This document shows positions 2,860 to 33,916 of a stretch of 36,899 nucleotides of DNA, in pieces. The position numbers were made by a program, and so were the translations under genes. The first letter of the stretch is position 1. Each line of letters opens with the position of its first letter. The notes under the pieces are model-generated. The model saw only the letters and a list, made by a program, of their open reading frames with translations, did not search any database and was not told the origin of the DNA. Origin of the DNA: an uncultured Bacteroidales bacterium (GTDB lineage Bacteria > Bacteroidota > Bacteroidia > Bacteroidales > Muribaculaceae); contig CAMWNG010000013.1 of the NCBI GenBank assembly GCA_947175575.1, positions 1-36,899 on the forward strand, written 5' to 3'.

Positions 2860-4689
2860 ATGACCGACTTTATCTCGCTCTTACGCAGATTCGTGCCGCC
2901 ATATCGAAAATATCTGGCGCTCAACATTCTGTTCAACATCCTTTCGGCCCTTCTGACCCTCTGTTCCTTCGCCCTGATCGTCCCCATCCTTGAGATGCTG
3001 TTCCGGATCAGGGAGGCGCATTATGTGTTCATGCCGCTGGGAAGCGGTTCGCTCAAGGATGTCGCAATCAACAATTTCTACTACTACACGCAGGAGAGCA
3101 TACTGCACTTCGGCCCGGCCAACACCCTGGCCATGCTCGCAGCAGGACTGGTGGTGCTTACCGCGCTGAAAACCGGCACCGCCTTCCTCAGCCTCTACTT
3201 CATCACTCCGCTGCGCAACGGCGTGGTGCGCGACATACGCAACTTCGTGTTCGACAAGATCACGGCTCTTCCGATCGGATTTTTTACTTCGGAGCGTAAG
3301 GGCGATGTCATGGCGCGCATGACCGGCGACGTGGCCGAGATCGAGAACTCCGTGATGGCCTCGCTCGACATGATTTTCAAAAATCCGGTGCTCATAATCG
3401 TCTATCTCGGCATGATGATCATAATCTCGTGGCAGCTGACACTTTTTGTGTTTATCCTGCTTCCTGTGGCCGGATGGGTCATGGGGCGCGTGGGTAAGCG
3501 TCTGAAGCGTCAGTCGCTCGAGGGACAAAACCAATGGGGTGTGCTGATGTCGCTCATCGAGGAGACTCTCGGCGGCCTGCGCATCGTCAAGGCTTTCACG
3601 GCCGAGGATCGCGTAAAGAGCCGTTTCCATACTGAGAACGACCGCTTCTTCCGCATCTCGAACCGTGTGGCACGGCGTCAGGCGCTCGCACATCCCATGA
3701 GCGAGTTCCTTGGTACATGCGCCGTAGCGATAATCCTGTGGTTCGGTGGCGCGCTCATTCTCAGCGGACATTCAAGCCTCGACGCGGCGAGATTCATCTA
3801 TTACATGGTGATCTTCTACTCACTGATACAGCCGGCGAAAGACCTGTCGAAAGCGGCATATTCCATTCAGAAAGGCCTTGCCTCGATGGAGCGAGTAGAC
3901 AAAATTCTCAATTCCGTGAATCCGATCGCCGACCCCGCCGCTCCGGAGCCGCTTCCGGCTCTGAAGTCAGGAATTGATTATGACGGAGTGACTTTCGCAT
4001 ATGGCGAACAGCCCGTGATCAATGATGTGTCGTTGCACATTCCCGCCGGAGCCACGGTGGCTTTCGTAGGTCAGAGCGGTTCGGGCAAGACAACTCTGGC
4101 CGACCTCCTGCCGCGCTTCTATGACGTGGACCGGGGACGCATAACGGTAGACGGCACCGACATCCGCCGGATGCGTGTGGCCGATCTCCGTTCGCTCATG
4201 GGAAACGTGAACCAGGAAGCCATACTGTTCAACGATACGGTGCATGCCAACATCGCTTTCGGAGTTCCCGACGCCACACGCGAACAAGTGATCGAAGCCG
4301 CTCGCGTGGCGAACGCGCACGAGTTCATCGAACAACTTGAGCAGGGGTACGACACCCCCGTGGGCGACCGCGGTTGCCGGCTCTCGGGCGGACAGCGTCA
4401 GCGTCTGAGTATCGCACGCGCCATACTGAAGAATCCGCCTCTGCTGATTCTCGATGAAGCCACATCAGCACTCGACAGCGAGAGCGAGGTGCTCGTTCAG
4501 CAGGCTATCGAACGCCTCATGCACGGCCGTACGACTATCGTGATAGCCCACCGTCTAAGCACCGTCCGTGGAGCCGATATTATCTGTGTGATGCATCAGG
4601 GCAGGATAGTTGAGCAGGGCACCCACGATTCGTTGATGGCACTTGACGGCCACTATCGTCGCCTGGTGGAAATGCAGTCATTAAACTGA
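2860..4689 (+). CDS. MsbA-like ABC exporter (fused membrane and ATPase domains)
   Basis: The 609-residue protein has an N-terminal half of about 350 residues with six expected hydrophobic segments, then a complete ABC ATPase: Walker A GQSGSGKTT near residue 404, signature LSGGQRQRLS near 508, Walker B LLILDEATSAL near 528-538, and the H-loop histidine near 564. This is the half-transporter design of MsbA and related lipid or drug exporters, working as a homodimer in the inner membrane. Lipid A-core flipping would suit the envelope genes elsewhere in the window, but sequence alone cannot separate MsbA from multidrug exporters. The start 16 bases after the hairpin gives MTDFISLLRRFVPPYRK, a usual opening. 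Confidence 0.88.
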   Translation: MTDFISLLRRFVPPYRKYLALNILFNILSALLTLCSFALIVPILEMLFRIREAHYVFMPLGSGSLKDVAINNFYYYTQESILHFGPANTLAMLAAGLVVLTALKTGTAFLSLYFITPLRNGVVRDIRNFVFDKITALPIGFFTSERKGDVMARMTGDVAEIENSVMASLDMIFKNPVLIIVYLGMMIIISWQLTLFVFILLPVAGWVMGRVGKRLKRQSLEGQNQWGVLMSLIEETLGGLRIVKAFTAEDRVKSRFHTENDRFFRISNRVARRQALAHPMSEFLGTCAVAIILWFGGALILSGHSSLDAARFIYYMVIFYSLIQPAKDLSKAAYSIQKGLASMERVDKILNSVNPIADPAAPEPLPALKSGIDYDGVTFAYGEQPVINDVSLHIPAGATVAFVGQSGSGKTTLADLLPRFYDVDRGRITVDGTDIRRMRVADLRSLMGNVNQEAILFNDTVHANIAFGVPDATREQVIEAARVANAHEFIEQLEQGYDTPVGDRGCRLSGGQRQRLSIARAILKNPPLLILDEATSALDSESEVLVQQAIERLMHGRTTIVIAHRLSTVRGADIICVMHQGRIVEQGTHDSLMALDGHYRRLVEMQSLN

Positions 4690-4772
4690 ATGGAGACATG
4701 CGTTGTTATAAATGTACGCGGGCACATGGCTCCGCTTCAACGAATTCTCTAACAAAGTAAAATTTACGCATC

Positions 4773-6119
4773 ATGTCAGATAACGAAAAATCTTTTGAAC
4801 AGCAGGCTCTCGACTATCATCGCTACCCCAACCCCGGTAAGATAGAGGTGGTTCCCACCAAACCGTATTCCACTCCGGAGGAACTTTCGCTGGCGTATTC
4901 GCCCGGTGTGGCTTATCCTTGCCTTAAGATCAAGGAAGACCCCATCAAGTCATACGATTACACCAACCGCGGAAATCTCGTGGCCGTGATTTCCAACGGT
5001 ACAGCCGTGCTGGGCCTCGGAAACATCAGTGCCGAGGCTTCCAAACCCGTCATGGAGGGTAAGGCTTTGCTGTTCAAGATTTTTGCGGGACTTGATGCCT
5101 TCGATATCGAGATTGATCAGGCTGATCCCGAAAAATTTATCGAGACTGTCAAGAGTCTGACTCCGACATTCGGCGGAATAAACCTCGAGGACATCAAGGC
5201 ACCCGAATGTTTCGAGATAGAGGAACGCCTCAAAGCCGAATGTGATATCCCTGTGATGCACGATGATCAGCACGGCACGGCCATCATCTCGGCGGCCGGA
5301 TTGCTCAATGCCCTTGAAATACAGGGCAAGGAGATTTCCGAGGTGAAGATGGTGGTGAACGGCGCCGGCGCCGCGGCCATGGCATGCACACGACTCTATG
5401 TGGCACTCGGCATGCGCAAGGAAAACATTGTCATGTGCGACTCTAAAGGCCCCATCACCACAGCACGCAAGGATCTCAACCGTTTCAAGAAAGAATTCGC
5501 CACCACCCGCACCTCGCTTCAGACCCTCGGCGAGGCCATGCGCGGAGCCGATGTGTTCCTCGGACTCTCGGTTGCCGATGTGCTCACACGCGAGATGGTG
5601 CAGTCGATGGCTCCCCGGCCCATCGTGTTTGCCCTTGCCAACCCGGCTCCCGAAATCTCATACGACGAAGCTATGGCATCGCGCGACGACATTGTGTTCG
5701 CCACCGGTCGTTCCGATTATCCGAACCAGATAAACAATGTGCTCGGCTTTCCCTACATCTTCCGCGCCGCACTCGATTGCCGCGCCACCACCATCAACGA
5801 GGAGATGAAAAAAGCCGCCGCCATAGCTATCGCCGCGCTGGCTCACAAGCCTGTGCCCGAGGATCTCGCCGAGGCATACGGAGTGCCCGGCCTGCATTTC
5901 GGTCGCGACTATATCCTTCCGAAGCCCTTTGACCGCCGTCTGCTCACCACAGTCGCACCGGCCATAATCCGTGCGGCCGAGGAAAGCGGAGTGGCTCGGC
6001 ACAAGATCACCGACTTCGAGGCATACGGCGAAAAACTCGAAAGCATCATGTGCTCCAACGAAGCCCTGATCAAATATATGATCCAGACTCAAAGCACTTG
6101 TGCACGACAGTCTGTCTGA
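4773..6119 (+). CDS. maeB: Malic enzyme, single-domain MaeB type without phosphotransacetylase domain
   Basis: The 448-residue protein carries malic enzyme motifs: [11 protein letters not shown] and the [11 protein letters not shown]-like segment [12 protein letters not shown] in the first 80 residues, [11 protein letters not shown] in the catalytic region, and a Rossmann site [16 protein letters not shown]. It should convert malate to pyruvate and CO2 with NADP or NAD. Many Gram-negative MaeB proteins, including those usual in Bacteroides, are about 760 residues with a C-terminal phosphotransacetylase-like domain; here the frame ends right after the malic domain and only 49 bases remain before the next gene, so no remnant is present. 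Regulation by acetyl-CoA through that domain would be lost. Confidence 0.9.
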
Positions 6120-26972: not shown

Positions 26973-29234
26973 TCAGTGCTTACTTACTTTCTTAACTGTA
27001 TTGTTCTGTTTAAGGATGTATATGCCTGGAGAAAGTACGTCGAGATCGGATCCAACCCTGACACCGCTAAGATTATAAACATCAAACGGAGCCTCCATAT
27101 CAATATCATATAGATTGTTATCCTTTACCACATCGCTTATTCCTGACATTTCGCCGGTCTGAGGATTGATCGCGACTGTCGGTCCGTCGGTGTAAAGACT
27201 TTCGGCAAGGATACGGAAAGGTGTGGCATCCGGAGCTTTCATCGGCGAGTTAAGGATTTCTGCTTCATCCATGTCCTGATGAAGTGTGACAAGTCCGTTG
27301 CGGTCGACAGTTGCGATTTCCGGGTTTGTTGAACTCCAATAGACATGAGGCAAATGAATATCTTGAGGCTTGAGAGATGCGGAGAGTTGGAAAGTATCTC
27401 CGGCACGGCCGATAAACTTCTGTGGTCCATCAAATTCAATGTATTCGGGACGGGTGAGGTAGGTCACATTTGATGGGATTGACCATGTGTACTCGTTTCT
27501 ATAAGCATCGTGTGAATCTTTTTCAAGATGTATCGTAGACATACTTATTCGATAATTACACAACGGAGGGTTAAAGGAAGTGATGCGTAGATTGTCCAGC
27601 TTGTTTGAGCCGAAAGCATTGCTGCCGATATCCTTTATTGAGTGGCCTATTATAACATTTTGCAAATAAGGCGAAGTAAATGCATCATCACCAATCTTCT
27701 CAACGTGCATCGGGATTAGGATATCGCTGAGTTGTGTTGAATAAAATGCTTTATTTCCAATGGTCTTGACATTGCTGCCGATATAGGCGGTTTTGAGGCT
27801 AAGGCAACCTTCAAACGCATTCTCCGGAATGGTCTCAATGTGATTTCCAATAATAACACTTGTGATTGAGGAGCCTTTAAATGGAGTTCCATCAATAGGG
27901 CGACCGATATATACTTCTGCTTTCATCGGATAAGAGCCATTGTAAACAGGCTCCATCGTTAATGTATTTACACCGTCATTGAGAGTAAATTCTTTGAGAG
28001 TGGTAGTTGCAAAGGCCGCTTCGCCAATCTCCGAAACAGAAGACGGAACAGTGGCCTGTGTGAGTTTTGAGCCGGCAAAAGAATACGGAGCAATGATACT
28101 AACTCCATCCATGATCACGACATTTATAAGATCAGGGAAGGGCGTTTTATTTTCTGAGAATGTAAAGGTTCGAAGCATTGTCATATTTGTAACCGGAGCG
28201 GCTTGAAACGCATTCTTGCCTATTGCGAGAGGACTTGTGTGAGACTGTCCAAGAAGATAAAGATCTCCGAGATTGATGCAGTTTGCGAATGCATAATCTT
28301 CTATGGACATCACGGTAGGTTGGACGACATAAGATTCAATATTTATCGGAGCGTATATAATAGACTGGTATTCGGGACCGTAGACGAATCCATTCTTTAC
28401 TATGGATGTTTGGGGGTCATAGGAGATTGCAACGGCGTCCTTATATTCCTCAGGTAGAGTAAAATTTTTGTTTTCTTCGAGAGCCGGGTAGCCAATCTTT
28501 ATTAAGGAAGGAAGATTAAAGAAATCATTGATACTTTTACCCAATACGGTCTGAGAGCCAAACAGAAGCTCTTCAATGCCACTATTGCTGAATGATGTAC
28601 TTCCGACATATTTGATTGATGACGGAAGATACAAAGATTTTAGAGAAGATGTGTTGGAAAAAGCTCTTTCAGCTATATCTGTTACCCCCTCAGCAATATC
28701 GACAGATGTCAAGGAAGTGCACCCGACAAGGAACATACGTGGAATGACAGTGAATGTAGAAGGGATCTTTATTGATTTCAAATTAGGGCAAAAGGCAAAT
28801 GCAGATTGATCATAGTCGGCATAACCTACTTCTCCAGACTCAATATTGCCTGATTTAGCAACCGTTGTAACGCCTTCCATTATAACAACAGACTCAAGAT
28901 TATCGCAATGAGAGAAGGCATTGTTTCCGAGAAGTTTAATGAAGCCAGGAATGGTTACTTCCGTCAGTTTGTTACAGCGGCTGAAACCACTTCCTGCTAC
29001 CATAGTAACAGGATAACTTTTGTTGTCCTCAGGGCAAATTACGGTTTCTTGCCATTGGATTTCTTCCAGATCATCTTTTGATGTGGCGGATACCCTGGCA
29101 AATGATTCGCTGTTTTGTATAGTGTATGTTAAACTGTATTTAAGGTCTTTACCATCTGAAAAAGACATTTTAGCGGCCCACGACGGGATGGAGGTTAATA
29201 AGATGGTGAATATAAGAAGTTTCAGTATTCTCAT
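26973..29234 (-). CDS. BspA-like leucine-rich repeat surface protein
   Basis: The start is placed at the ATG at 29234, giving a signal peptide (MRILKLLIFTILLTSIPSWA) and 753 residues; an upstream in-frame TTG at 29414 adds 60 residues of non-protein-like sequence that cross other elements. Residues about 60-570 hold BspA/LRR_5-type repeats (IPSTFTVIPRMFLVGCTSLTSVDIAEGV and similar). A Big_2-like Ig domain follows (FIGRAGDTFQLSASLKPQD, YWSSTNPEIATVDRNGLV), and the end (VYNLSGVRV, LSPGIYILKQNNTVKK) resembles a type IX secretion sorting domain. It is probably cell-surface or secreted and may bind host or bacterial surfaces. An AT-richer gene. Confidence 0.87.
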   Translation of the reverse strand: MRILKLLIFTILLTSIPSWAAKMSFSDGKDLKYSLTYTIQNSESFARVSATSKDDLEEIQWQETVICPEDNKSYPVTMVAGSGFSRCNKLTEVTIPGFIKLLGNNAFSHCDNLESVVIMEGVTTVAKSGNIESGEVGYADYDQSAFAFCPNLKSIKIPSTFTVIPRMFLVGCTSLTSVDIAEGVTDIAERAFSNTSSLKSLYLPSSIKYVGSTSFSNSGIEELLFGSQTVLGKSINDFFNLPSLIKIGYPALEENKNFTLPEEYKDAVAISYDPQTSIVKNGFVYGPEYQSIIYAPINIESYVVQPTVMSIEDYAFANCINLGDLYLLGQSHTSPLAIGKNAFQAAPVTNMTMLRTFTFSENKTPFPDLINVVIMDGVSIIAPYSFAGSKLTQATVPSSVSEIGEAAFATTTLKEFTLNDGVNTLTMEPVYNGSYPMKAEVYIGRPIDGTPFKGSSITSVIIGNHIETIPENAFEGCLSLKTAYIGSNVKTIGNKAFYSTQLSDILIPMHVEKIGDDAFTSPYLQNVIIGHSIKDIGSNAFGSNKLDNLRITSFNPPLCNYRISMSTIHLEKDSHDAYRNEYTWSIPSNVTYLTRPEYIEFDGPQKFIGRAGDTFQLSASLKPQDIHLPHVYWSSTNPEIATVDRNGLVTLHQDMDEAEILNSPMKAPDATPFRILAESLYTDGPTVAINPQTGEMSGISDVVKDNNLYDIDMEAPFDVYNLSGVRVGSDLDVLSPGIYILKQNNTVKKVSKH

Positions 29235-29342: not shown

Positions 29343-29392
29343 GAGGGTGCGCGAATATTCATGATAAACAGGAGAGTTTACGGCACACCCTC
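29343..29392. repeat. Inverted repeat upstream of the BspA-like gene
   Basis: GAGGGTGCGC (29343-29352) pairs with GCACACCCTC (29383-29392) with one G-U. A further small stem (TAAAC/GTTTA on the minus strand) lies in the loop. It is outside the promoter of the structured RNA and may be a leader structure or terminator. Confidence 0.45.
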
Positions 29393-29521
29393 TGAGAGGC
29401 TTGAAACTTCTCAATCAATACTATCGGATAACTCACCGAAAATGAAAAGAATGGAGTGAACAAGGATACGGGCATACCGTGGTTTATGCCTTAGGCTCCC
29501 GGATAGGCGCGATATATTTAA

Positions 29522-29850
29522 GAAGAAAAGCGTGAGAGCCTTTCATCGAGCCCGTTCCGCTATCAGAGGCTCTGGTAATGCCCATCTCAGTAGAACGGAC
29601 AGGGCAGAGGCCTCACGCGGAGATATATAGTACACCTACAACGATACTCTCGTATCGCCAGGCATAGCGGTACATATCCACGTCAGACGTCTACTTCTGT
29701 CTCATTCTTGACTGAGATTGAAATTTACCAGATTTCTGATAGCCAAGAAAGAGCGTCGAGTAAACGCTTTTCAGTATTTATAACAACTTGCCACTGCAAG
29801 CATTAGCAAACCCGCCCTCAAGCCCGTGACCGGGCCTCTGCTCAGCGGTC
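29522..29850 (-). ncRNA. Structured RNA of about 330 bases with own promoter, family unknown
   Basis: A perfect promoter (29858-29888) would start transcription near 29850. The minus-strand RNA then holds many stable hairpins: CTTGC/GCAAG (29787-29800), CTCA/TGAG (29701-29716), CGATAC-GAGA-GTATCG with a GNRA loop (29642-29657), and a large 3' domain closed by GCGTGAG/CTCACGC (29612-29618 with 29530-29536), containing CCGTTC/GAACGG and CAGA/TCTG stems. A tract of T-rich sequence (CTTTTCTTCTT) follows at 29521-29531. It lacks RNase P (GAGGAAAGTC), tmRNA T-arm and SRP signatures. No long reading frame is present in this region. Confidence 0.6.
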
Positions 29851-29857
29851 TGCACGA

Positions 29858-29888
29858 CAAAATTACAATATTTATTTTTGTCGTCAAA
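29858..29888 (-). promoter_or_regulatory. Strong promoter of the structured RNA
   Basis: TTTG (29885-29888), 19 bases, and TAATTTTG (29858-29865) on the minus strand are a perfect Bacteroidetes promoter with no protein start after it. Confidence 0.8.
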
Positions 29889-30004: not shown

Positions 30005-30030
30005 AAAAAACGCGCCTATGAAAGCGCGTT
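30005..30030 (-). terminator. Intrinsic terminator after the small membrane protein gene
   Basis: AACGCGC (30024-30030) and GCGCGTT (30009-30015) on the minus strand form a stem with a loop of eight bases, followed by a T-run (30005-30010). It lies 24 bases after the stop at 30054. The roughly 170 bases between this and the RNA promoter are AT-rich without a recognisable gene. Confidence 0.85.
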
Positions 30031-30053: not shown

Positions 30054-30293
30054 TCAGAATGCTGCTTCGGGGGAGAAGGGGGAGTTGTTGAGGCGTAGGG
30101 CGGCGGCGATGGTGTAGTGCCGGAATTGGCCGGCGACGTCTTTGGCTTGGGTTACTGAGGTGGCGTCTGCACCTCCGGAACGCAAGGCGGCGCCGGAGGG
30201 ATCAAAACTTAGGATGCTGATTACGGCTACCATCAGTGCTACTACGAGACCTCCAAGAAAGCCGATCAGATTGTTTGCTTGTTTGCGTGTCAT
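30054..30293 (-). CDS. Small membrane protein, function unknown
   Basis: The 79-residue protein starts MTRKQANNLIGFLGGLVVAL with one membrane segment (residues about 9-29), followed by a hydrophilic stretch rich in Ala, Ser and Gly (FDPSGAALRSGGADATS) ending in SPFSPEAAF. It has basic residues before the membrane segment, so the tail should be periplasmic. A good terminator follows. No family is recognised. It is separated from the thioesterase by 84 bases with no clear promoter. Confidence 0.6.
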   Translation of the reverse strand: MTRKQANNLIGFLGGLVVALMVAVISILSFDPSGAALRSGGADATSVTQAKDVAGQFRHYTIAAALRLNNSPFSPEAAF

Positions 30294-30377: not shown

Positions 30378-31130
30378 TCAGCGCGACGTTAGGGCCACGG
30401 AAACGGCTGTGCGCCTGTCGCGTCGGATTTCAGTGACCGCCGCCCGGGAATCGCGTGCGCCCGGCCCTGTGACGGCTTCGACGGTCTCGCCGTAATGACA
30501 TTCGTGGTCGAACGAGGCTTCGAGCCGGTAAACGGGATTTGCGCGATACCATTCGGGCGTGTGCTGATTCATCACCAGATCGAGATAGCGCAGGGTGTTG
30601 ACATGGCCGTTGAAGTCAATGTCGGTGAACCGGAACGTGTATGACTCTGTGGCCGTGGCGCCGTCGCGGGCAATGAGCGGTGTGCGGCACTTCTCCACCG
30701 GACATTCACGCGCGGCCACCGGGAAAAGAGTTGATTCGATGGCCGTGAGGTCGGCCATGCTGCGCTTGCGGATGTCGATGGCAACCCACACCGAACGGAT
30801 GTGTCCCAGGGGCTCGCCCTTAGAATCAGTTATAAGGAAGCAACGGTCGCTGAAGAACCGGTTGTAGCTTTCGATCCAGGTCGAAATTGTGTAGAACTCG
30901 TTTATTCCGGGAAAGCGAAGCATGTCGATGGTCAAGCGTGCAAGCACCCAGGCCATGCCGTGGGTGGCGAGGTCGGAGTAGCCGATGCCGAGCAGGTTGG
31001 CATGTTCTGTGGCCATCTCAATGGCGCGTGAGGCCACGAGGGTCAGTGGCATCTGACCGAAAATGTCGGTCTGTCCGGCGGTGAGATGATAGGTCTCGGT
31101 GAGGGTGTCTTTATTTTCAGAGAGATTCAT
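30378..31130 (-). CDS. Acyl-ACP thioesterase
   Basis: The start is set at the ATG at 31130, giving 250 residues; an ATG at 31172 that overlaps lptD by 10 bases adds 14 residues unlike the family. The protein is a double-hotdog acyl-ACP thioesterase: DIFGQMPLTLVASRAIEMATEHA, HGMAWVLARLTIDMLRFP, and the catalytic DIDFNGHVNTLRYLDLVMN (Asn/His residues of the FatA/FatB type). It should release free fatty acids from acyl-ACP, a step common in anaerobic Gram-positives and also seen in Bacteroidetes. It lies directly after lptD, so both serve envelope lipids. Confidence 0.85.
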   Translation of the reverse strand: MNLSENKDTLTETYHLTAGQTDIFGQMPLTLVASRAIEMATEHANLLGIGYSDLATHGMAWVLARLTIDMLRFPGINEFYTISTWIESYNRFFSDRCFLITDSKGEPLGHIRSVWVAIDIRKRSMADLTAIESTLFPVAARECPVEKCRTPLIARDGATATESYTFRFTDIDFNGHVNTLRYLDLVMNQHTPEWYRANPVYRLEASFDHECHYGETVEAVTGPGARDSRAAVTEIRRDRRTAVSVALTSR

Positions 31131-31162
31131 GGGGATGTTTTCAGGACCGGGGAAGCCGGTTT

Positions 31163-33916
31163 TCAATACCATTGCACGCCGTTAGATGTAGACGAGCGTT
31201 TGTCGTACTTGAGGTCGGAAAGAAGCGAACTCTTGACGGCGATGTTGAACGTATAGCTCTTGTAGGGGCCCACGGGCACAAATGACGCGCGCATGGAGAA
31301 ACAGTGCAGGTCGCGCGAGATGTTGCAGTTCATGTAGGCGAGGCGCTTGGTGTCGAAGTTATATGATGCCGTGAAGCTGAAATTCCAGTTTTTCGTCGGG
31401 CGGATAGAGCCTGAGAAGCTCAGATTCTGTGTTATGCGCGGGTCATATTCCATCTTTTCCTTGTTGAACGTGCCGTAGCCGTATGAGATGGAATAGTTGA
31501 GCGTGAGGCTCCACGGCACCCGCCAGGGCACATATCCGTCGGCGGTGAGTTCTCCGGAGCCCGAACCTCCGGTATCGTCGTCAGGATTATCGAGGTCGGC
31601 CGGATTAGCCGGCTCGGATGAAGATGACGATGAATTGTCCGGTGCTGACTGCTTCTTGTTCTTACGTTTGAACGTATCGTTGTTGAAAGTGTATGAAAAT
31701 GAAGTGCCGGTGTTGCGCAGGCGTCCGATTCCTTTGCCTGCCTTCCAGCGGGGAATGTTGACTCGGACGGGTGAGCCGTATTCGTTGAGCTGGTAAGTGT
31801 ACACATCCCACGTGGCCGAAAGGTTGAGGTTGAAACCCTTGGTGAGTCGCAGCAGTATGGATGTGCTCAGATCCGACCAGTTGAGCGAGTCGGCGGCGAA
31901 GTTGTAGCTTTCGCCTATGCTGAGGTTCTCGATGAGTGATATTTTCTTTTCGGGCACGGAGTCGTTCTGCGACTTGACCTTCATCTCCAGGTTGTTGGCG
32001 AGGTTGAACGACACTGACCCGGTCTTGCCCTGCGACGGTACACCGAACAGAGCGTTGGGGAACAGGGAATATTTACGGCTTTGGGGAGTGCCCTTAGGGT
32101 CGATGTATTCGTAGGAGTCGTAATATCCGAAGAACGGTGAGCTGAAGTCGGGTGCGCCGTTGAACGTAATCGACGGGGTCATGACGTGGCGCACCATGCT
32201 GATTTTCTTGGCCAGAAATCCCAACGGACGCCAGAATCCGTAGACTTTTGTGTCGAGACTCACCGACCCCTGGAAGTCGTACACGTTGTAGAGGCTGTAA
32301 GTGGTGTCGGCAAGTTCGATACCCAGATCAGGGTCCCAGTGGCGACGCACCTTGTTCGTGTACATTCGGTCGGTGATGTTGATCGAGGGTGTGATGTTGA
32401 TGTAGTTGAACACATTGAAGGTGGCCGATATGGGCACATTGTGCCTCATGCCGTTGCGCCAGTCTTTGATCAGGCTTTTCTTGAAGAACTGGTTCTGCTT
32501 GGCTGTGAGGGAGTTCTGGAACTGTCCGGAGTAGGACATCTTGATTTTCTCATACCATCGCTCACTTCCGCGGGCCTTCTTGCGTTTGAACGGCGCCAGT
32601 TGGCTCATAGTCAGCGTGAAGTTGGGGAAGGACACGGCGAGGGTGGAGTCCTGTGTGCGCTGGCTCACATTGAGCGTGGTGCTCAGGCTCCATTTACTGT
32701 TGGGAAAGCGATAGGTGAGGTTGACGCTCGAACTCTTGGTGTTTTCGGTGAAGGACGGAGAATAATATGAGTTGAGGTCGTTTCGGGAATATCCGGAGGT
32801 GGTGAAGTTGACGGAGGCCGACAGGTTCATGTTGGGGTTGGCCTTGGCGTCCTGGCTGTGCGACCAGAGAATCTGGAAGTTGGTCTGTGCGGAATAGTCA
32901 GGCGACCCTTTCTCACCGAGGATGGTCTTGAGATAGGAGAGCTGGAAATTGCCGTTGAACTTGTAGCGTTTGGAATATGTGCTCTGTGCATTCACGCCCC
33001 AGGAACCCTTGGTGTAGAGTTCGCCGCGAAGTGCGAGGTCGATATTGTCGTTGATGGCGAAATAGTAGCCGCCGTCGCGCAGATAAAAGCCTTTCTGATA
33101 GTCATCGCCGAAGGAGGGGAAGATGATGCCGGAGGCGTAGGAGTCGTTGAAGGGGAAATAGCCGAAAGGCACGGCAATGGGGAGGGGTAGACCGGCGAGC
33201 ACCATGTACACCGGTCCGGTGACCACATCGCGTCCCGGACGCATTCGGCCCCGGGTGATGTTGAAATAGAAGTGGGGACAGTCGTGATCGTCGCAGGTGG
33301 TGTAGCGGCCGTTTTCGATGAAATACTCGTCGTTTTCGTCCTTTTTTGTCACTCCGCCTGTGAGGTAGCCTTCGCCTTGCTGGGTGACTACGTTGGTAAT
33401 CAATCCCTTGCGGGTGTTGAAGTTGTAGTGCATGGTCTCTGCCTCGTATTCGGAATCTTTTTCATCGAACACGGGTTTGCCGACGATGGTGCCGGTGGAG
33501 TCGGGCACTCCGACCGCATACACCGTCGATGTGTTGAGGTCGAGCTGGATGTTGGCGGCCTGAAGCTTGAGGTCGCCGTAGGTCACCGAACTGTTGCCGT
33601 ACATGTAAGCCGAGTCGCGGCGCACGATCACCATGGAATCAGATGACCGGAACTGCACCGGAGCGTCCAGATCGACTTTCTCGAGTACAGGACGCAACCT
33701 CGGCACGAATGTATCGGGTTCTTCCGCCGGGACAGGTATGGCGGTATCGGCCGGTATATCAGCTGAATCGGCTACCGCGATCACCGAGTCAACCGCTACA
33801 TCGACTGATTCCGGCGCCACCGCGTCGGCGATGTCGGAAGGGTCGAAACCGGTGTCTGCGGCAGCAAAACCGGCCAGAGCCGTGATACATATTATATATA
33901 GGAGGAGTTTTCTCAA
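31163..33916 (-). CDS. lptD: LPS-assembly protein LptD (OstA-like)
   Basis: The 917-residue protein has a signal peptide (MRKLLLYIICITALAGFAAA), a periplasmic OstA/LptA-like domain (residues about 75-230; QLDLNTSTVYAVGVPDS, YNFNTRKGLITNVVTQQGEGYLTGG), the cysteine pair TTCDDHDCPHFYF, and a long beta-barrel half rich in alternating aromatic strands ending KYDKRSSTSNGVQWY. In the outer membrane it inserts LPS with LptE. Length is near that of Bacteroidetes LptD. A TATCTTTG box at 33964-33971 on the minus strand may be its -7 element. Confidence 0.9.
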   Translation of the reverse strand: MRKLLLYIICITALAGFAAADTGFDPSDIADAVAPESVDVAVDSVIAVADSADIPADTAIPVPAEEPDTFVPRLRPVLEKVDLDAPVQFRSSDSMVIVRRDSAYMYGNSSVTYGDLKLQAANIQLDLNTSTVYAVGVPDSTGTIVGKPVFDEKDSEYEAETMHYNFNTRKGLITNVVTQQGEGYLTGGVTKKDENDEYFIENGRYTTCDDHDCPHFYFNITRGRMRPGRDVVTGPVYMVLAGLPLPIAVPFGYFPFNDSYASGIIFPSFGDDYQKGFYLRDGGYYFAINDNIDLALRGELYTKGSWGVNAQSTYSKRYKFNGNFQLSYLKTILGEKGSPDYSAQTNFQILWSHSQDAKANPNMNLSASVNFTTSGYSRNDLNSYYSPSFTENTKSSSVNLTYRFPNSKWSLSTTLNVSQRTQDSTLAVSFPNFTLTMSQLAPFKRKKARGSERWYEKIKMSYSGQFQNSLTAKQNQFFKKSLIKDWRNGMRHNVPISATFNVFNYINITPSINITDRMYTNKVRRHWDPDLGIELADTTYSLYNVYDFQGSVSLDTKVYGFWRPLGFLAKKISMVRHVMTPSITFNGAPDFSSPFFGYYDSYEYIDPKGTPQSRKYSLFPNALFGVPSQGKTGSVSFNLANNLEMKVKSQNDSVPEKKISLIENLSIGESYNFAADSLNWSDLSTSILLRLTKGFNLNLSATWDVYTYQLNEYGSPVRVNIPRWKAGKGIGRLRNTGTSFSYTFNNDTFKRKNKKQSAPDNSSSSSSEPANPADLDNPDDDTGGSGSGELTADGYVPWRVPWSLTLNYSISYGYGTFNKEKMEYDPRITQNLSFSGSIRPTKNWNFSFTASYNFDTKRLAYMNCNISRDLHCFSMRASFVPVGPYKSYTFNIAVKSSLLSDLKYDKRSSTSNGVQWY

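Follow-up and report, generated by a model that had tools for sequence, protein, structure and literature searches.

What is encoded on the minus strand at positions 29522–29888 of this contig, where a promoter appears to face a region without a reading frame? The first-pass annotation, made from the letters of the 36,899-nucleotide stretch analysed here (the window), saw at this place an unrecognised structured RNA, which might be a new RNA class or the leader of a BspA-like LRR gene 290 bases downstream. Both suggestions fit what was found, and the most probable reading is that the stretch is the 5' leader of that LRR gene and belongs to a large Bacteroidales family of cis-acting attenuator RNAs, one absent from Rfam. 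What goes beyond the earlier description is that there are many copies of the leader, that it has two exclusive folds, and that a long helix joins its hairpin X to its loop Y.

The window locus

Inspection of the minus strand shows TTTG (29885–29888), a 19-base spacer, and then TAATTTTG (29858–29865). These are the −33 and −7 boxes of a textbook Bacteroidetes promoter, as had been proposed, and the RNA would be expected to start at about 29852. An E. coli-type promoter scan, which is not applicable to the Bacteroidetes, found nothing in the leader. No ORF of 80 aa or more overlaps 29522–29888, which agrees with the earlier statement that the region has no reading frame. The window copy of the leader RNA, about 330 letters long, lies on the minus strand from about 29852 to 29488 and runs some 30 bases past the end described before, up to a small hairpin at 29488–29507.

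The minus strand of 29515–29855 folds with −151.2 kcal/mol, compared with −103.8 ± 5.6 kcal/mol for 100 shuffled sequences (z = −8.5). The first-pass annotation needs one correction here: the lowest-energy fold is a long-range structure that opens the Y-shaped 3' domain rather than a row of local hairpins.

The LRR gene (26973–29234, minus strand) is of the BspA type (PF13306, E=2.4e-65) with a Big_2 domain (PF02368, E=2.2e-6), and the distance from the U-tract to its start (29234) is about 290 bases, as had been noted. Upstream of the leader and on the same strand are acyl-ACP thioesterase and LptD genes (30378–33916) and a 79-codon ORF with a hydrophobic stretch (30054–30293), which is followed by a terminator-like hairpin at 30009–30030.

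Copies of the leader and their distribution

With the leader as query, BLAST located seven places in the window's own genome. Matches occurred in 19 of 41 genomes, all of the window's genus; those listed are 67–89% alike to the window copy. A degenerate pattern for the 3' domain found at least 117 stretches in named GTDB records. Among the matches listed (80 titles), 21 are titled Muribaculaceae and 8 bear the names of what we take to be genera of that family (Muribaculum 2, Duncaniella 2, Paramuribaculum 1, Amulumruptor 3), alongside 19 Porphyromonadaceae, 12 Bacteroides sp., 11 Bacteroidales, one each of Barnesiella, Prevotellaceae, and Bacteroidaceae, and two named only as a bacterium. The three Lachnospiraceae titles and the one Clostridium title, also among the matches listed, are taken as mislabelled bins. 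From these titles the window's family is read as Muribaculaceae.

Most copies came from this pattern, the first 48 loci having been found by BLAST with the whole element and extensions. A profile built from the first 39 copies scores more than 60 bits in all 166 loci, mostly across the near-whole leader and in some cases across part of it. Seven of 165 rows were removed as duplicates, and from the 158 distinct copies 25 partial ones were dropped, leaving for alignment the 133 in which the profile match covers the leader nearly end to end.

In the window's family, 265 of the 297 genomes searched have a match to a covariance model of the 3' domain. The model also matched 29 of 247 genomes sampled from the order, the window's family included, and, in a sample of 247 from the phylum, the window's own genome alone. 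A second model, to which copies from other families had been added, gave matches in 51 of 295 genomes from the order at E<=1e-3, where the E-values are rough and matches near the threshold may be chance, and in 33 of 295 at E<=1e-6. By hand count, 29 of these 33 genomes are outside the window's family, in 14 families. Among 247 genomes of the class the same model matched six: two of the matches are weak, and the other four genomes, one being the window's own, are of the order. In the genomes sampled the leader RNA belongs to the Bacteroidales, and beyond the window's family its occurrence is patchy.

In the own genome there are 11 matches to the first model, one of which is the reverse strand of the palindromic domain, leaving 10 loci; an eleventh, at a contig edge, was found by BLAST, for a total of about 11. 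Up to at least 13 copies are present per genome within the family, these numbers being lower bounds, with 13 candidates scored per genome. At one locus (L147, about 4199–5056) two leader copies lie back to back, some 130 bases apart, each facing its own gene, the one LRR-like and the other lipoprotein-like by eye.

No match to the leader was found by blastn in phage and plasmid collections, and a pattern scan of IMG/VR gave a single contig, such that a general phage element is rejected at that sensitivity. The IMG/VR contig (L166, 10,757 bases) has a 75-codon ORF after the leader and may be a prophage or a bacterial fragment.

A long-range duplex between X and Y

When all column pairs of the 133-copy alignment were tested for covariation (G-test), three helices had by far the highest scores: a (9 bp), b (8 bp), and c (7 bp), which link 29711–29743 in X to 29559–29591 in Y. 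In the window, hairpin X (29705–29749, stem UUCUUGGC/GUCAAGAA) carries strand a at 29735–29743, strand b at 29711–29718, and loop c at 29726–29732, and their partners in the Y loop are a' at 29559–29567, b' at 29584–29591, and c' at 29571–29577, all on the minus strand. Pair scores reach 298, with a background standard deviation of 4.8, and sum to 1426 for helix a, 1051 for b, and 794 for c. Helix a has 98.7% of its cells paired (68.0% when shuffled) and every pair formed in 117 of 129 copies; for c the values are 99.5% (77.8%) and 127 of 131 copies, and for b 92.3% (63.8%) and 88 of 120 copies.

Each X also fits the Y of its own copy. The mean duplex energy is −34.9 kcal/mol for own partners versus −14.6 kcal/mol for mismatched ones, with the own partner best in 117 of 133 copies, and in the six own-genome copies tested every X scores best with its own Y. 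The same holds in other families (−33.4 versus −22.2 kcal/mol; own best in 14 of 15), a test of 15 out of 16 copies, the one dropped having a Y that the pattern did not recognise. Strand X is absent from the pattern and the model with which the other-family copies were found.

In a separate alignment of 48 copies, the pairs of this arrangement, here called state A, are formed in 94.8% of cells, compared with 30–43.1% when slid, and show 411 both-side changes, compared with 46–68. Four of five shuffle measures for state A were reached by 0 of 500 shuffles, and the remaining one, further pair types, by 20 of 500. State A includes the pairing of strand M (AGACAGAAGUAGA, 29690–29702), which rivals the terminator 3' strand for s1 (29593–29602), and this too is supported (95.3% of cells paired, z 8.8 versus shuffles). 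The local stem of X is weakly supported (z 3.8; 90 of 131 copies fully paired; shuffled mean 88, maximum 94). The stems are maintained in the homologues. Given the strength of the covariation, the structure of the leader is hardly in doubt.

The putative terminator and its exclusion of the duplex

The Y-shaped 3' domain, the 11-bp bulged stem, and the T-rich tract that had been described are all present, and the Y-domain proves to be one of two alternative states. In the window the stem consists of GCGUGAG/CUCACGC and GCCU/AGGC around one bulged U, followed by UUUUCUUCUU. Its outer part has a 5' arm GCGUGAGG at 29611–29618 and a 3' arm at 29530–29537 (within 29521–29540), its inner part is formed by s1 (29593–29602) and s2 (29548–29557), and the U-tract is at 29521–29529. 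A simple terminator scan did not list this end, because the loop is too long for that scan.

This arrangement, state B (s1:s2 and GCGUGAG:CUCACGC, with the X stem), has 95.2% of cells paired in the separate alignment of 48 copies, compared with 39–47.4% when slid, and 40 both-side changes, compared with 4–16. Each of 18 terminator pairs is kept in 18 to 21 of 21 sequences, of which 16 are from outside the family. Helix s1:s2 (term1) has 98.6% of cells paired (z 8.8), with 117 of 128 copies fully paired (shuffled mean 90, maximum 98). The outer stem (term2) varies little across copies; it has 96.2% of cells paired and 109 of 126 copies fully paired, with a shuffled mean of 102 and a maximum of 106. 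At least five T are found in the eight nucleotides after the stem in 123 of 133 copies, against 4.7% of background windows, and fewer than five in the other 10. The apical GNRA hairpin reported at 29642–29657 is there in the sequence as CGAUAC-GAGA-GUAUCG; a hairpin of at least 4 bp with a 4-nt loop occurs at this site in 120 of 133 copies, and the loop is GNRA in 80.

Shared bases and geometry indicate that states A and B exclude each other, as the 24-bp duplex cannot sit inside the loop closed by s1:s2, and both states are conserved: M:s1 and s1:s2 are supported alike although they share s1. Forced folds put state A below state B in energy in 132 of 133 copies, with a mean difference of 14.1 kcal/mol. 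The stop state would then not be the one reached at equilibrium, and termination would need kinetic trapping, a ligand, or a protein.

Further contacts in the leader

Outside these two states there are further supported pairings. The closing strand AAAAGCGU (29764–29771) pairs either locally with CGACGCU or, in state A, with ACGCUUUU (29526–29533), thereby covering the U-tract and part of the terminator 3' arm. This latter pairing is present in 93.5% of cells (z 9.4) and is complete in 78 of 127 copies, where shuffling gives a mean of 57 and a maximum of 68. The UACU of the closing hairpin also pairs with AGUA after s2 (z 8.9).

The 5' domain (29791–29854) includes a hairpin with stem GACCG/CGGUC, 78.8% of the cells of which are paired (72 of 113 copies in full; shuffled mean 35, maximum 42). 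Its loop GCAGAGGCC, here PK5 (29833–29841), is complementary over 9 bp to PK3 (GGCCUCUGC, 29604–29612), a strand that can be the partner of PK5 or of M. This helix (z 7.8) is perfect in the window, with 95.8% of cells paired and 100 of 116 copies fully paired, compared with a shuffled mean of 78 and maximum of 85. By eye, the 5' domain is not evident in several of the other-family copies.

Past the U-tract, the loop GAGCC (29494–29498) of the downstream hairpin (29488–29507) pairs with GGCUC (D5, 29536–29540). This D helix is perfect in the window and has 89.8% of cells paired (z 12.9), with 84 of 126 copies fully paired (shuffled mean 52, maximum 60). Since the hairpin is beyond the U-tract, the D helix would form only in transcripts that pass the terminator.

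Position of the leader relative to genes

The promoter is a feature of the family, 126 of 133 copies and 4 of 1729 control windows having an exact TAnnTTTG at the columns concerned; among the 126 copies having the −7 box, TTG or TTTG is found 17–27 nt upstream in 107. The first downstream ORF (at least 80 aa, within 1 kb) shares the leader's strand in 108 cases and lies opposite in 6, out of 151 copies examined, the rest being without an ORF or having one cut by the locus end. Upstream neighbours divide 74 to 46 by strand. This co-orientation, which fits the earlier suggestion of a leader, is repeated outside the family, where 24 of 27 loci have a downstream ORF on the same strand, one has it on the opposite strand, and two have none. 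When only the sense strand is considered, 145 of 158 copies have a downstream ORF of suitable length, although this figure alone says little, because the mirror search upstream gives 115 of 158.

Spacing is likewise non-random. In 92 of the 145 copies the gene start falls 30–50 bases downstream of a reference point set immediately behind the U-tract, whereas no bin of equal width in the mirror control exceeds 12 of 115. The start is more than 130 bases away in 17 of 145, and in the window and some other copies the next long ORF is hundreds of bases off. At the usual gene-start position the window has a 38-codon ORF (MPVSLF..., 29359–29475, minus strand), which may be a small gene or nothing, and several other copies with a far gene also carry short ORFs there. 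The copies L032, L044, and L090 precede what seems to be the same gene (KAKVIKI.VQP.EAAIYVDNNLIGYGYGEF) with a gap of 391–405 bases, in which a further element or small gene may therefore lie.

Among the 25 proteins encoded downstream of the leader in other families, nine are related to one or more of the 128 leader-linked proteins in the main set. Three of the 25 match among 405 control neighbours, all within the nine, leaving six that match leader-linked proteins alone. Together with orientation and spacing, this suggests that the leader travels or stays with certain genes. At the level of sequence comparison, then, the helices, the promoter, the U-tract, and the cis arrangement can be regarded as established.

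The genes themselves are mixed. After removal of sequences with near-identical starts and truncation of long ones to 400 aa, the 142 proteins encoded downstream include 18 with LRR_5, 4 with PDDEXK_4, 3 with DUF6567, and 2 each with TerB, SNF2, and ResIII, and among the 25 of 52 families listed none but the LRR models has more than four members. A few of the 142 match PADLOC models, and with PADLOC and PHROGs together some appear helicase-, nuclease-, or methylase-like or of LRR type. No single system accounts for the set. By a crude rule of our own, a signal-peptide-like start is seen in 65 of 107 downstream proteins versus 120 of 374 neighbours.

Of ten leader-linked genes in the own genome, five are BspA-type LRR genes, the window gene among them, and the others encode an AraC-type regulator, a GHL10 protein, a DUF6567 protein, a TerB-like protein just above the cut-off, and a protein without a match. 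The genome has 62 LRR_5 matches, which group by contig and frame into 12 genes, 5 of them directly behind a leader.

Relation to known RNAs

At the gathering threshold Rfam 15 gives two tRNAs elsewhere in the window and nothing else, and a single tRNA and no RNA family for the leader in 20 further leader loci; at E<=10 there are solely rows far below the family thresholds (window region and L205 region). In the window and these 20 loci there is no Rfam match to RNase P, tmRNA, SRP RNA, or 6S RNA, and ARAGORN finds no tmRNA, in keeping with the earlier observation that the conserved sequences of the first three are missing. The covariance-model search thus returned no known family, which along with the strong covariation fits a new RNA class.

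As a kind, the leader is an attenuator-type switch. It has an upstream promoter in 126 of 133 copies, a co-directional gene in 108 of 114, a stable hairpin with a U-tract, and an alternative fold that excludes it. With attenuators and transcriptional riboswitches it shares the 5' leader position, a promoter of its own, exclusive terminator and antiterminator folds, the U-tract, and the existence of paralogous copies. It differs from those known in that two hairpins with complementary sequences form its long antiterminator duplex, in that a pairing to a hairpin downstream of the terminator is added, and in matching no Rfam class. We know of no precedent for an architecture in which such a hairpin pair is combined with a reader hairpin further downstream. 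T-box leaders (RF00230) resemble it in being long, in switching between terminator and antiterminator, and in lying upstream of varied genes, but the leader has no Rfam match and its genes are not evidently amino-acid genes.

No description of the leader RNA was found in the openly accessible literature searched, so that a prior description is possible. Structured RNAs from the same order or phylum are Bacteroidales-1 (RF01693), Bacteroides-1 (RF01694), and Bacteroid-trp (RF01692) (Weinberg 2010, PMC2864571). The window and the 20 loci match none of 4227 Rfam families, among which these three are assumed to be included. The Bacteroides-2 motif is listed there (PMC2864571) without an Rfam number and so falls outside the Rfam comparison. 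Fremin and Bhatt (2021, PMC8040213) report 3161 RNA candidates from the human microbiome, including palindromic ones of 80–132 bp from Bacteroidetes, with three predicted terminators. These may be fragments of the leader RNA or something else; no such 330-nt element, switch, or regulon was seen described there.

Proposed mechanism

Having two mutually exclusive folds, the leader is probably an on/off switch that stops or permits reading of the gene behind it; termination itself and the direction of the switch are proposals drawn from the sequences. Each leader copy would be transcribed from its own promoter, and its parts would emerge in the order 5' hairpin, closing hairpin, X, M, apical hairpin, PK3, s1, Y, s2, and terminator arm. 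In the read-through state, A, hairpin X would open and zip with Y by way of a, c, and b, while M would take s1, leaving s2 free, and the closing strand would cover its partner at the U-tract, so that RNA polymerase would pass. The freed GGCUC could then pair with the loop of the small hairpin just before the usual gene start. In the stop state, B, X would remain a local hairpin, and s1:s2 with GCGUGAG:CUCACGC would make an intrinsic terminator before the gene. Closure of X, with PK3 held by the 5' loop, would let s1 meet s2 and the terminator form. Because PK5 competes with M for PK3, it probably favours state B, and the 5' hairpin loop is one likely place for a signal to be read.

More tentatively, and with the balance somewhat against it, the leaders might be an orphan switch class found across the order in gut Bacteroidales, in which kissing and zipping of X and Y, each much more complementary to the other than to its counterparts in paralogues, gate a surface- and defence-type regulon, the downstream hairpin re-reads the outcome, and transcription and translation are set by a three-part device that senses a common signal.

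Alternative explanations

What acts on an attenuator of this kind may be sought in two directions, each possible and neither likely. The leader could be a metabolite riboswitch of a new class, with the two folds as the expression platform and the X loop, M, the UUUACU loop, and the apical hairpin as a putative aptamer; its leader position, the paralogous copies before many genes, the conserved unpaired stretches, and the exclusive folds would suit this, but the downstream genes have no evident common pathway and the RNA is larger than most riboswitches. Or a protein acting in trans, one that binds RNA or brings about antitermination, could recognise the leader and control a regulon of surface and accessory genes, in line with the many copies before mixed genes, the excess of signal-peptide-like starts by the crude rule, and the pairing beyond the terminator; against it stands the patchy occurrence of the leader in the order.

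The remaining explanations depart from an attenuator altogether or replace its trigger. That the element is a stand-alone trans-acting RNA of about 330 nt ending at the terminator, with genes that follow by chance or have promoters of their own, is suggested by the promoter boxes and terminator-like end in most copies, and is improbable given the same-strand genes (108 of 114, and outside the family 24 of the 25 with an ORF), the peaked spacing to gene starts, the downstream hairpin that pairs back into the terminator strand, and the leader–gene pairs kept across families. Attenuation by a ribosome that sets the fold while on a short ORF would call for a leader peptide, and ATG triplets do recur at particular columns (in 114, 108, and 93 of 133 copies). 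These lie inside conserved RNA motifs, however, and the lengths and stop columns of the ORFs scatter, the steadiest (4 codons, column 188) sharing its stop in 42 of 93. With ATG starts only, no steady short ORF or frame is seen in the 133 copies; a conserved leader peptide is largely refuted, and this form of attenuation is very improbable. Least probable, if by little, is a MITE-like mobile repeat spread by transposition with no regulatory role. There are indeed many dispersed copies per genome and the 3' domain is palindromic, but the listed matches to the window copy are as little as 67% and at most 89% alike with compensatory changes between them, orientation and spacing to genes are non-random, and the promoter columns are conserved. 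A cis-acting attenuator in front of the LRR gene, and in front of the other genes that follow copies of the leader, is the most probable reading.

Significance

In the mammalian gut the Bacteroidales rank with the most abundant bacteria; not many RNA switches are known from them. Placed before BspA-type LRR genes, genes for secreted-looking proteins, and some defence-like genes, the leader would constitute a hidden layer of control over surface and accessory functions in these organisms. The leader family is also a natural example, replicated a hundred-fold, of a bistable RNA in the course of evolution.
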